Source of the DNA: Ralstonia sp. TCR112
Lineage (GTDB): Bacteria; Pseudomonadota; Gammaproteobacteria; Burkholderiales; Burkholderiaceae
Assembly: GCF_007997035.1 (NCBI RefSeq)
Contig: NZ_VOSS01000101.1
Span: 1-53,963, forward strand
Direction of reading: 5' to 3'
Length of the DNA: 53,963 bases
Shown here: positions 487 through 13,871 of the stretch, piece after piece
Numbering within the stretch: the stretch's first letter is position 1
How the letters are laid out: every line of letters begins with the position of its first letter
Notes under the pieces: model-generated
Told to the model about the DNA's origin: nothing
Database searches by the model: none
What the model saw: the letters and a program-made list of their open reading frames with translations, nothing else
Program-made: the position numbers and the translations under genes

Positions 487-1263
487 TCACGTCAGGGCGC
501 GGTCGAGGTGCGTGTAGCCGCCGTCGACAAACACCCACTGGCCCGTCGTATGCGAGGCCTGCGCAGAGAGCAGGAAGACCGTGGTGCTGGCAATCTCGTC
601 GGCGGTGGTCATGCGCTGGCCGAGCGGAATCTTCGATGTAATCGCCGCGAGCTTGGCATCGGGGTTGTCGAACGTGGCGATCCAGCGTTCATACAGCGGC
701 GTCAGCACCTCGGCCGGAATGACCGCGTTGACGCGCACGCCATCCGGCGCCAGCGACGCCGCCCATTCCCGCGTGAGCGACAGCTGTGCACCTTTTGCGG
801 CGGTGTACCCGCTCGTATTGCCCTGCCCCGTCAGCGCCGTTTTCGACGAGATATTGACGATGGCCCCTCGGCTCGCTTTCAGGTGCGGCACGCACAGATG
901 TGCCATGACGTAGTAATGGATCAGGTTCTTTTCGAGCGACCGCACGAAGGCGTCCCGGCCGGCGTCCAGGCCCACGCTGTCATTGATGCCTACATTGTTG
1001 ACAAGACCATCGATATGCCCGAACGCGCGCAAGGTTTCTTCCACCATGCCGCGGCAGTCGACTTCATCCTCCAGGTCGAACTGGAAGAAGCGTGCCTTCG
1101 GCTGCCGATGCATCAGTTCGGCTTCAAACGCCGGGGCCATCGGGCTCTTGCCACAGACGACGGGAATGGCGCCCTCGGCTGCCAGTTGCAGCGAGATGGC
1201 CGCGCCAATGCCGGCCGCGCCGCCCGTGACGATGACGACTTTGTCTTGCAGATGCAAATCCAT
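487..1263 (-). CDS. L-fucose dehydrogenase (SDR family)
   Basis: This 258-residue classical short-chain dehydrogenase has the nucleotide-binding motif TGGAAGIG (residues 13-20), NNVG (89-92) and the catalytic Y153-x3-K157. It probably oxidises L-fucose with NAD(P)+ to L-fucono-lactone, the first step of the non-phosphorylating pathway. The family alone does not give the substrate; that comes from the adjoining fuconolactonase-like and fuconate dehydratase genes. It starts only 3 bases after the lactonase stop, so translation is probably coupled. L-fucose dehydrogenases commonly also take L-galactose and D-arabinose, which share the same ring stereochemistry. That matters for the rightward gene trio at 10208-13871. 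Confidence 0.8.
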
Positions 1264-1266
1264 GGT

Positions 1267-2163
1267 TCAAGCCTTGAGTTGCAGGTTGTAGCAGCGGGCG
1301 GCGGTGCCACCCCAGAGATCGATGCGTTCGGTGGCGCTGAGCCGCTCTTCGGCCCAGACGTGCAGCACGTCGACCACCGTGCCGTACGACGCCGCCAACT
1401 GGCAGACGGGCCAATCCGAGCCGAACATCACGCGACCTGGGCCGAACACGTCGAGTGCCACGTCAAGGCACTGGCGCGCGTGCTGAACGTCGCGCACGGT
1501 CACGCCCTTTCGCCAGTCGGCTTCGGTCAGCAAGCCGGAAAGCTTGCACGCGACATGCGGCATGTCCTTGAGCGGTGCCAGCGCGGCCCGCCAGCGCGCC
1601 AGGGCCTGTGCGTCACGCTCGAACGCCTCCAGCGGCGGCTTGCCGAGGTGGTCCAACACCAGCCAGTGGTGATCGTGCCGACCGCAGAAATCCACGGCGG
1701 GCGCAAGCTGATGACCGAACACCAGCACGTCGTACGTGTAGCCCCAGAGCTGCAGCAGCGCGACGCCCTGCTCGAATGCCGGGTCTGACAAGAACGCCGC
1801 GACGTCCGGTTCGTTCTGCACGGTGTGCCGGAAGCCGACCAGCTTGTGGTCACCGCTCCTTGCCTCGAGGCGCGCTTCAAGGTCGGTGGCATGCAGGTCT
1901 TCCCAGCCCACCACGCCGACAATCCAGTCGTGCGCAGCGGCGAGTTCGAGCAGGAAATCCGTTTCCTCTCGCACGCCGCGCGCCTGCACGGCGATCGCAG
2001 CGTCCAGGCGTTGCGCCCGAAGCTCCGGCAGCAGGTCGGCAGGCAGGCGGTCTTCGGCCAGGGCTTCCATGCCGGGACCGATCCACGAATACGCCTCGGG
2101 GCGATAGCGCCAGAAATGCTGGTGCGCGTCTATTCGCGGCACGGGCAGCGCAGGATCCGTCAT
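1267..2163 (-). CDS. L-fucono-lactonase (amidohydrolase 2 family)
   Basis: This 298-residue TIM-barrel amidohydrolase should open L-fucono-lactone to L-fuconate. The N-terminal metal-binding H-x-H is visible as DAHQHFW (H14, H16). Further along are the CKLSGL strand and a late FGSDWP segment whose Asp is the usual catalytic residue. The length matches COG3618 sugar lactonases. I chose the ATG at 2163 because it lies 4 bases beyond the dehydratase stop. A longer frame exists from a TTG at 2193 but would overlap the previous gene. Related enzymes hydrolyse L-rhamnono-lactone or 2-pyrone-4,6-dicarboxylate, so the substrate rests on context. Confidence 0.82.
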   Translation of the reverse strand: MTDPALPVPRIDAHQHFWRYRPEAYSWIGPGMEALAEDRLPADLLPELRAQRLDAAIAVQARGVREETDFLLELAAAHDWIVGVVGWEDLHATDLEARLEARSGDHKLVGFRHTVQNEPDVAAFLSDPAFEQGVALLQLWGYTYDVLVFGHQLAPAVDFCGRHDHHWLVLDHLGKPPLEAFERDAQALARWRAALAPLKDMPHVACKLSGLLTEADWRKGVTVRDVQHARQCLDVALDVFGPGRVMFGSDWPVCQLAASYGTVVDVLHVWAEERLSATERIDLWGGTAARCYNLQLKA

Positions 2164-12346: not shown

Positions 12347-12360
12347 ACCTGCAAAGCATC

Positions 12361-13871
12361 ATGTCCGACGCATCCCTCATTCTTCTTGCCCCCGACGACG
12401 ATGTGGCCGTCGCGCGCGTGGCGCTCGCGCCAGGCGCAGCACTCAACGCCGGGTTGACCACCCGCGATGCCATTCCCGCCGGTCACAAGGTCGCAATGCG
12501 CGACATCGCAGTGGGCCAGCCGGTGCACAAATATGGGCAGGTCATCGGCGTGGCGACAGTGGCCATTCGTGCGGGTGAGCATGTGCACGTCCACAACATC
12601 GGCATGGCCCACGCGTCTGCCCAGCACGCCGTGGGCCACGCGTACCGCGCCACCGTCCCCGTCGACACGCTGCCACGTTCCAGGGCTACGTGCGGGCGGA
12701 TGGCCGCGTCGGCACGCGCAATTTCATTGGCGTCATCTCCAGCGTGAATTGCTCGGCCACCGTGTGCCGGCATATCGTGCAAGCGGCCCAGGCAGAGGCG
12801 GCCGCATTTCCCAACGTGGATGGCGTGGTCGCCATCACGCACGGCAGCGGCTGCGGCATGGCCGGCAACGGCGAAGGACTGGAACTGCTGCAGCGCACGC
12901 TGCGCGGCTACGCCGACCACCCAAACTTTGCCGGCGTGCTGATCGTTGGACTCGGTTGCGAAGTCAACCAGGTCGCGCCGCTCGTGCAGATGCTAGGGGC
13001 GCGCACACCCGGCCTGTTTGCATCGCTGACGATCCAGGAAGAAGGCGGCACGCGTGAAGCCATTGCGGCCGGCCTGTCCATGCTGCGCGACATGCTGCCG
13101 ATCGCGAACCAGGCAGAACGCAGCGCCGTCCCAGCCAGCCACCTCACGGTGGGCCTGCAATGCGGAGGGTCCGACGGCTACTCCGGCATCAGCGCCAACC
13201 CGGCGCTGGGCGCCGCGGTGGATTTGCTGGTGCGGCACGGCGGCACCGCGGTGCTGTCCGAAACACCCGAGATCTATGGCGCGGAACACCTGTTGACCGC
13301 ACGCGCGGCCACACCTGCCGTGGCCGATGCGCTGATGAACCGGCTGGCCTGGTGGGAGCACTACACCCGCACGCTGGGCGCCGACATGAACAACAACCCT
13401 TCGCCCGGCAACAAGGCCGGCGGCGTCACGACCATCCTGGAAAAATCCCTCGGCGCGGTCGCCAAGGGCGGCAGCAGCGGGCTGATGGCCGTGTATGAAT
13501 ACGCGCAGCCGGTGCAGACGCACGGCCTCGTCTTCATGGACACGCCCGGCTACGACCCCGTGTCTGCCACGGGCCAAGTCGCAGGCGGGGCCAACCTGAT
13601 CTGCTTCACAACGGGCCGCGGTTCCACCTATGGCTGCAAGCCGGTGCCCTCGTTGAAGCTTGCGACCAACAGCACGCTCTATCGGCACATGGAACTCGAC
13701 ATGGACTACGACTGCGGCGGTATCGTCGATGGCCACCTCAGCATCGCGCAAGCCGGCGAGGCGCTGTTCCAGCTGATGCTGGCCACTGCCTCCGGCACGC
13801 GCACCAAGAGCGAACTCAATGGCCTGGGCGACAACGAGTTCGTGCCCTGGCAGCTTGGCGCGGTGATGTAA
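12361..13871 (+). CDS. Altronate dehydratase (UxaA family, frameshifted)
   Basis: About 503 residues after one base is restored. The N-terminal SAF domain (roughly the first 90 residues) and the large C-terminal dehydratase domain are both present. C-terminal features include GYVRADGRVGTRN, the GCG in HGSGCGMAG, GLQCGGSDGYSGI and a GRGSTYGCKPVPSLK segment whose cysteines may hold the iron or Fe-S centre. The frame breaks at about 12674, where CCNACGTTC is expected and CCACGTTC is read. It would dehydrate D-altronate to 2-keto-3-deoxy-D-gluconate. Galactarate dehydratase is a paralogue, but the upstream reductase favours altronate. The KDG kinase and aldolase must be encoded elsewhere. Confidence 0.75.

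Follow-up and report, generated by a model that had tools for sequence, protein, structure and literature searches.

A putative joint locus for L-fucose and L-galactose use in Ralstonia

The contig NZ_VOSS01000101.1 of Ralstonia sp. TCR112 (positions 1 to 53,963; this whole stretch of 53,963 nucleotides is called the window) carries two divergent gene sets that flank a GntR/FCD regulator, one at 135-8929 on the minus strand and the other at 9088-13871 on the plus strand. All genes named in an earlier note on this DNA are present, according to the list of open reading frames (ORFs) and profile searches of the window. L-fucose is 6-deoxy-L-galactose, and the two sugars differ at C6 only. We consider it likely that this one locus imports both L-fucose and L-galactose, processes them with shared first enzymes, and then sends them into two routes. 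The substrates of all proteins, the import of both sugars, the regulation and the history of the locus are predictions from sequence.

Genes of the two arms

The left arm is on the minus strand throughout. Its final gene (135-479), which lies outside the range covered by the earlier note, encodes a RhaM-family mutarotase that matches PF05336 with 100.6 bits and the rhamnose mutarotase model TIGR02625 with 21.7 bits, far under the cut-off of the latter. It is probably an L-fucose mutarotase, and a RhaM-type mutarotase gene adjoins the L-fucose dehydrogenase gene in loci L066, L067, L068, L072 and L073 too. The L-fucose dehydrogenase (487-1263), a short-chain dehydrogenase/reductase (SDR), and the L-fucono-1,5-lactonase (1267-2193), an amidohydrolase, both pass the cut-offs of NCBI equivalog models (NF052481, 440.8 bits against 300, and NF052480, 470.2 bits against 400, respectively), and their top solved matches are 4gkb/4gvx (402 bits) and 4dlf (359.8 bits). 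The L-fuconate dehydratase of the enolase superfamily (2168-3508) matches 4ip4 with 719 bits and entries titled L-fuconate dehydratase with 577 bits. A predicted 2,4-diketo-3-deoxy-L-fuconate hydrolase of the FAA hydrolase family (3487-4377, PF01557), the products of which would be pyruvate and lactate, has the L-2,4-diketo-3-deoxyrhamnonate hydrolase 8gsr as its top solved match (320 bits). The predicted 2-keto-3-deoxy-L-fuconate 4-dehydrogenase (4388-5146), also an SDR, has 8y11/8xwk/8y4j as top solved matches (332 bits); these entries are titled just SDR family oxidoreductase, and going by PMC11199699 we take 8y11 and 8xwk to be probable L-2-keto-3-deoxyfuconate 4-dehydrogenases. Upstream are the genes of an ATP-binding cassette (ABC) importer: a substrate-binding protein assigned by orthology and tree to the type found in L-galactose operons (5279-6226, top solved match 4wut), a permease (6262-7386, PF02653), and an ATPase with two PF00005 matches (7286-8929), the real start of which is probably downstream of the first ATG. 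The left arm is thus predicted to be a complete non-phosphorylating L-fucose operon with an ABC importer. The full L-fucose route that the earlier note had read in it holds up as a prediction, with two enzymes passing equivalog cut-offs and the remaining ones matching solved entries.

The right arm, on the plus strand, opens with the GntR/FCD regulator, which is of the L-galactose-operon type (9088-9795, PF00392 and PF07729). It is followed by a predicted LgoD-like L-galactonate 5-dehydrogenase, assigned by profile matches and called the Zn dehydrogenase below (10202-11214, in two frames, 10202-10429 and 10441-11214), a predicted UxaB-like tagaturonate reductase of the mannitol dehydrogenase superfamily (11219-12346, 375 residues, PF01232 and PF08125), and a predicted UxaA-like altronate dehydratase with SAF, second and C-terminal domains (12361-13871, in two frames, PF08666, PF04295 and PF20629, the last with 340 bits). 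The LgoD-like protein scores 205 with NF007489, the cut-off of which is 376, and since E. coli LgoD itself reaches just 206 there, this cut-off is not decisive; the intact L004 ortholog shares 45% identity with E. coli LgoD over 321 residues. These family matches agree with the reaction series of the earlier note, in which the trio would convert L-galactonate to tagaturonate, altronate and 2-keto-3-deoxygluconate (KDG). The claim that no uronate isomerase is present also held when extended to the genome: PF02614 (UxaC) has 0 matches in the TCR112 genome, and the same search was positive in 7 of 14 control genomes. We therefore rejected the use of D-galacturonate. For the steps after KDG, the genome has a candidate KDG kinase, a 58% homolog of the PfkB kinase adjoining the trio in L011, and a KDPG (2-keto-3-deoxy-6-phosphogluconate) aldolase above cut-off, both on contigs other than that of the window.

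In the window assembly, the Zn dehydrogenase and UxaA-like genes are each broken into two frames, so that two of the three right-arm enzyme genes are interrupted while the left-arm genes are open. This pattern could mean that the right arm is decaying in TCR112 and that the locus is functionally fucose-only there, which would be compatible with a joint locus in its relatives. We regard decay as unlikely, though it is the most serious of the alternatives. Each of the two genes is a single open frame in all five close relatives (L004-L008, four named Ralstonia and one 'Burkholderiaceae bacterium 26'). Furthermore, when 47 ORFs of a 96% identical relative were traced in the window (the stretches overlap slightly, and a few ORFs are possibly counted twice), four were split, one was partial, and one was not found and probably lies past the end of the window. 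Two of the four split ORFs are unrelated genes at 43-48 kb, so decay specific to the right arm is unsupported. At this place (43300-47850), two genes extend over several frames in comparison with the relative, which suggests single-base draft errors in the contig. Because the right-arm genes are open in 5/5 relatives and unrelated genes are split as well, draft errors are likelier than decay, without proof.

Putative L-galactose operons and a mosaic origin

One scan of public genomes gave 44 loci, and with 20 further loci and the window there are 65 annotated rows. As the scan queries were peptides from the UxaB of the window, near relatives are favoured, and the gene counts are lower bounds where a contig end or flank cuts a locus. 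A UxaB-like gene (at least 45% identity) is found in 49 of the 65 rows. A Zn dehydrogenase gene lies within 1.6 kb of it in 47 of these 49 loci (the exceptions are L023 and L028); the main Zn dehydrogenase subtype is present in 43 and another subtype in 5. The 49 loci also include UxaA in 30, GntR in 41, a window-type binding protein in 26, an aldo-keto reductase (AKR) in 7, a Lac2 lactonase in 9, and a PfkB kinase in 11.

Importer, AKR, Lac2 lactonase, Zn dehydrogenase and UxaB occur together in seven loci of three lineages, namely Roseateles (L030), Rhizobiales (L036, L037) and genus g12 of the family (L055, L057, L059, L065), and UxaA is present as well in five of the seven. The AKRs of L036 and L055, the two tested, have L-galactose dehydrogenase as the title of all five best solved matches. 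These solved enzymes are presumably from plants. The importers of the seven loci are orthologous to that of the window (binding protein 74-89% identical), and six of the loci have a GntR with 49-77% identity to the window's. These loci indicate putative bacterial L-galactose operons, consisting of importer, AKR, lactonase, Zn dehydrogenase, UxaB and often UxaA, in Burkholderiales and Rhizobiales. An AKR of P. mimosarum acts on D-arabinose, L-fucose and L-galactose, according to passages of PMC6336799. D-arabinose was considered as the substrate of the AKR-containing operons, but D-arabinonate would lack the stereocentre at C5 on which an inversion by the LgoD/UxaB pair depends.

The surveyed loci vary in three further respects. 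First, the Zn dehydrogenases of L036 and L037 are of the other subtype (~35% identity to the window's); this subtype is paired with a UxaB-like gene in L034, L036, L037 and L038 (and L028), perhaps as a non-orthologous replacement for the same step. Second, L009 (5865-8946) has, in the place of the sugar importer, an ABC importer of the amino-acid type, with Pfam matches to SBP_bac_3, BPD_transp_1 (two genes) and ABC_tran. Eleven loci, all from the Comamonadaceae/Oxalobacteraceae set that surrounds the Ralstonia UxaB in the tree described below, were labelled as having this importer type, of which L009 is based on Pfam, eight (L011, L012, L016, L017, L023-L026) are inferred from a short ATPase match in the same place, and L010 and L013 are without evidence; it is possibly a sugar-acid importer. 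Third, in two g12 genomes a second enolase-superfamily dehydratase lies between UxaB and UxaA (L061:7443-8762 and L063:10089-11378). It is 55-56% identical to the window's L-fuconate dehydratase and may be an L-galactonate or L-fuconate dehydratase.

The importer and regulator of the window belong to the L-galactose lineage, not the fucose lineage. Six g12 genomes, for which both the L-fucose locus and the UxaB locus were fetched, allow a comparison of the two. In four of them (G032, G049, G093, G180), the UxaB locus has the form of an L-galactose operon as described above; in the other two (G210, G257), it contains Zn dehydrogenase, UxaB, dehydratase and UxaA, without a window-type importer or AKR. 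The g12 L-fucose operons sit elsewhere in the genome, with their own importer and their own GntR. The window proteins are 77-89% (binding protein), 83-86% (permease), 74-81% (ATPase) and 71-77% (GntR) identical to those of the four L-galactose operons, versus 29-31%, 40-45%, 55-57% and 32-36%, respectively, for eight g12 fucose loci. Consistently, the Ralstonia binding protein (support 95/98) and GntR (100/100) group with the g12 L-galactose versions in trees, and the fucose-operon versions are far from them (100/100). The window's importer as a fucose importer was rejected on this orthology, and it may carry L-fucose as well. Because importer and regulator are of the L-galactose lineage, L-fucose catabolism seems to have come under the control of an L-galactose system.

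The other parts of the locus point to different sources. The gene order of the fucose block is that of genus g3 (L066, L067), where a different importer stands upstream. The Ralstonia UxaB falls within Comamonadaceae/Oxalobacteraceae loci (95/89, 90/91), apart from the g12 L-galactose UxaB; the trees are midpoint-rooted, and any direction of transfer is inferred. Genome G158 of the same genus, whose assembly is 88% complete and in 410 contigs, has a fucose block with 86-95% identity to that of the window beside an importer only 35% and 31% identical to the window's, and a separate Zn dehydrogenase-UxaB-UxaA locus of another type on a different contig (L076 on G158:C112 and L071 on G158:C2). 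This genome looks like the unmerged state. Taken together, the locus appears to be a mosaic of an L-galactose-operon regulator and importer, a fucose block with the gene order found in a neighbour genus, and an L-galactonate trio with a UxaB closest to those of Comamonadaceae/Oxalobacteraceae.

The promoters of loci with orthologous GntR genes have a TTGG-N5-CCAA motif in common. In a seed-free enrichment, this motif was found in 18 of 24 non-Ralstonia promoters, and the largest palindrome count in 200 shuffled sets was 5. The window contains it twice, once in each promoter. The operator-like sequence before the left operon, TTGGTCAAGCCAA (8933-8945), is identical to the 13-mer that precedes the L-galactose operons in L055, L057 and L065, and that before the right operon, TTGGCCTGACCAA (9981-9993), is the top-scoring 13-mer of the window, with weaker copies at 9877-9889 and 10008-10020. 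The count of two is itself not significant (0.48 expected; 8 of 100 shuffles reach two), and it is the placement that matters; a looser pattern with up to three mismatches gave 17 window sites versus 14.7 expected, no excess over chance. With a weight matrix from 20 non-Ralstonia promoters, the seed half-site of which was taken from inspecting the window itself, the two sites rank first and second among all 13-mers of the 54 kb window, and their scores were reached by 1 of 2000 Markov shuffles of the left promoter and 0 of 2000 of the right. The eight g12 fucose loci that carry a GntR of their own divide into five in which no site exceeds 12 bits and three with a 16-bit site within the SDR gene; one of these three has a distant 14-bit site in addition. 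We note that the merged locus is not the only one in which such an operator precedes fucose genes, because the g12 fucose operon L068, from a genome with no UxaB-like match, has a 17.6-bit site (12247-12259) roughly 80 bp upstream from the SDR gene. The same motif at both promoters suggests that one regulator may serve both arms, in line with the earlier note.

The two arms do co-occur in other genomes, a point that the earlier note had left to a synteny search. Markers for UxaB-like protein and L-fucose dehydrogenase were searched at E <= 1e-60. In a family sample of 299 genomes, they were found in 95 and 46 genomes, respectively, and together in 24; they lie within 20 kb of each other in eight genomes, every one of the window's genus. 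Nine of 16 genus genomes have both markers, seven have neither, and none has a single one, although related genomes are not independent. In eight of the nine, the markers are 10.7-11.2 kb apart, and in G158 they are on different contigs. Both markers are patchy across the order, with L-fucose dehydrogenase in eight, UxaB-like protein in seven, and both in two of 399 sampled genomes.

Two sugars and one set of first enzymes

A search for the AKR gave no match at E <= 1e-15 in 15 of the 16 genus genomes, TCR112 included; only G113, a genome with the merged locus, contains a 43% relative, on another contig. In the TCR112 genome, a Lac2 lactonase query matched the window lactonase only (38%), and a query with a fucose-type binding protein found nothing closer than the window's binding protein (31%). 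Because the genome has no match to the AKR and no separate Lac2, the L-fucose dehydrogenase and lactonase are the remaining candidates to oxidize L-galactose. The closest solved relative of this dehydrogenase, the B. multivorans enzyme, is reported to be active on L-galactose in passages of PMC6946681. The earlier note had proposed that dehydrogenase, lactonase and importer are shared by both sugars; sharing is still the simplest reading, with the correction that the importer is of the L-galactose lineage by orthology and tree, not of the fucose type.

A second merged operon is found in Rhizobacter (L033), with the order GntR, importer, Lac2, Zn dehydrogenase, UxaB, UxaA, PfkB kinase and then four fucose genes, of which the L-fucose dehydrogenase gene is the last. 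All genes but the regulator are co-directional, and there is no AKR. Its importer groups with Roseateles rather than Ralstonia in the tree, which suggests that this merger was separate from that in Ralstonia.

We propose that a single L-galactose-type ABC importer would bring in both sugars, and that mutarotase, L-fucose dehydrogenase and lactonase would convert each to its own aldonate, L-fuconate or L-galactonate. L-fuconate would be processed in turn by L-fuconate dehydratase, 2-keto-3-deoxyfuconate dehydrogenase and the diketo hydrolase, with pyruvate and lactate as the products. L-galactonate would be inverted at C5, the LgoD-like enzyme giving tagaturonate and the UxaB-like enzyme D-altronate, which UxaA would turn into KDG for the kinase and aldolase encoded elsewhere. 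The GntR of the L-galactose lineage would govern both divergent operons via the TTGG-N5-CCAA operator. As for its history, an L-galactose regulon may have captured L-fucose genes and lost the aldose dehydrogenase and lactonase that it once had, leaving one dehydrogenase-lactonase pair to feed both routes and the C6 hydroxyl alone to pick the route, and two or more such mergers may have occurred, in Ralstonia and in Rhizobacter, apart from the Halomonas loci discussed below; the chances for and against this history seem to us balanced. If so, the locus would be a testable case of merging pathways for near-identical sugars, with enzyme sharing, loss of redundant enzymes, exchange of an importer, and one operator. 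L-galactose is a constituent of plant cell walls and of polysaccharides from algae, and these genes may thus be relevant to the use of plant-associated carbon.

Several points weigh against this joint use, in addition to the broken right-arm genes, the origin of the seed half-site and the operator in L068. Three assignments fall short of curated models: the diketo hydrolase scores 424 with NF053535 (cut-off 500), a model built for the rhamnonate homolog; the UxaB-like protein scores 202.8 with NF002969 (tagaturonate reductase), its top NCBIfam match, against a cut-off of 359; and the UxaA-like protein is above the cut-off of PF20629 and misses that of the galactarate dehydratase model TIGR03248, its substrate being only predicted. 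The AKR is not a universal feature of importer-bearing Zn dehydrogenase-UxaB loci, since the fetched stretches of ten further loci with UxaB and a window-type importer, all from outside Ralstonia and other than L033, show none. The same passages of PMC6946681 term the L-fucose dehydrogenases of B. multivorans and C. jejuni weak on L-galactose, and state that C. jejuni, which has a related L-fucose dehydrogenase, does not grow on this sugar. L-galactose might also run through the fucose arm alone; the title of a 1979 paper cited in PMC11293516 describes the conversion of L-galactose to lactate and glycerate in mammals.

The right arm may instead serve external L-galactonate, an acid, rather than L-galactose oxidized by fucose enzymes, and the two arms would then be just neighbours under one regulator. 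This is consistent with the nesting of the Ralstonia UxaB among loci that seemingly carry the amino-acid-type importer and have no AKR, and with the tripartite ATP-independent periplasmic (TRAP) importer that PMC5507952 proposes for acids in the joint loci of Halomonas. However, we found no acid importer among the genes of the Ralstonia locus, the importer type that it does have goes with AKR homologs of L-galactose dehydrogenase, and its regulator is of the same lineage; we consider this explanation improbable. We give slightly less weight still to the idea that UxaA or the L-fuconate dehydratase dehydrates L-galactonate directly and that the Zn dehydrogenase and UxaB serve otherwise, for instance in L-gulonate or L-gluconate use: PMC6336799 mentions, as unpublished data, an L-galactonate dehydratase of the UxaA family that acts in an unidentified L-galactose metabolism of Acidovorax avenae, and Luteolibacter LguD accepts L-gluconate and L-galactonate alike (passages of PMC12632266), but the pairing of Zn dehydrogenase and UxaB within 1.6 kb in 47/49 loci, the presence of UxaA in 30/49, and the AKR homologs in seven UxaB loci favour a chain from L-galactose to altronate as the simplest.

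Comparison with known systems

The earlier note knew of no described system joining the two arms, and this absence of precedent was rejected on the basis of PMC5507952. This 2017 paper describes L-fucose/L-fuconate loci with lgoD, uxaA and uxaB (or uxaF) and predicted FucR sites in two Halomonas strains, and points to their chromosomal co-localisation and likely co-regulation. Strain HL-93 has every step of the L-fucose pathway, together with an ABC system for which L-fucose is the predicted substrate, and HL-48 just the later L-fucose steps. Among the papers listed by searches of one open-licence library, we found no report on L-galactose operons of Burkholderiaceae, on one dehydrogenase and lactonase serving both sugars in such a locus, on the L-galactose ancestry of importer and regulator, on the TTGG-N5-CCAA operator, or on the Ralstonia and Rhizobacter mergers.

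Among the closest known systems are these Halomonas loci, in HL-48 and HL-93, and an L-galactonate locus in Chromohalobacter salexigens, all described in PMC5507952. The Ralstonia locus is like the Halomonas loci in having lgoD, uxaA and uxaB beside fucose genes, compared by family against the text only. It is unlike them in that its importer and regulator are of the L-galactose lineage, the sets being compared by description; no gene at 135-13871 matches a TRAP family, the type of the Halomonas Lgo/Lfo importer, and an ABC importer is found instead. What appears new relative to Halomonas is this ancestry, the mosaic origin, and a locus in which no acid importer was found.

The right arm is predicted to catalyse the same three reactions as L-galactonate catabolism in E. 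coli (lgoD, uxaB, uxaA), and differs in the UxaB-like protein under the family cut-off, the genome without UxaC, and the connection to sugar uptake and oxidation. A route from L-galactose to KDG is established in Luteolibacter, according to passages of PMC12632266. The lguABCDEF system of strain LG18 described there resembles the Ralstonia route in passing through L-galactonate, tagaturonate and altronate to KDG with most enzymes clustered. It differs in an L-galactose dehydrogenase of another type, which clusters with plant and Bacteroides enzymes in that paper's tree, and in having no fucose arm and a dual role with L-glucose. The putative dedicated L-galactose operons of the L055 type share orthologous GntR, ABC importer and operator with the window, unlike which they have an AKR and a separate Lac2 (neither found in the TCR112 genome, the AKR at 1e-15). 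Finally, as in the non-phosphorylating L-fucose pathway known from Xanthomonas campestris and Burkholderia multivorans, all enzymes to pyruvate and lactate are predicted in the left arm, and unlike the g12 fucose operons, the window combines them with an importer and a regulator of the L-galactose type.

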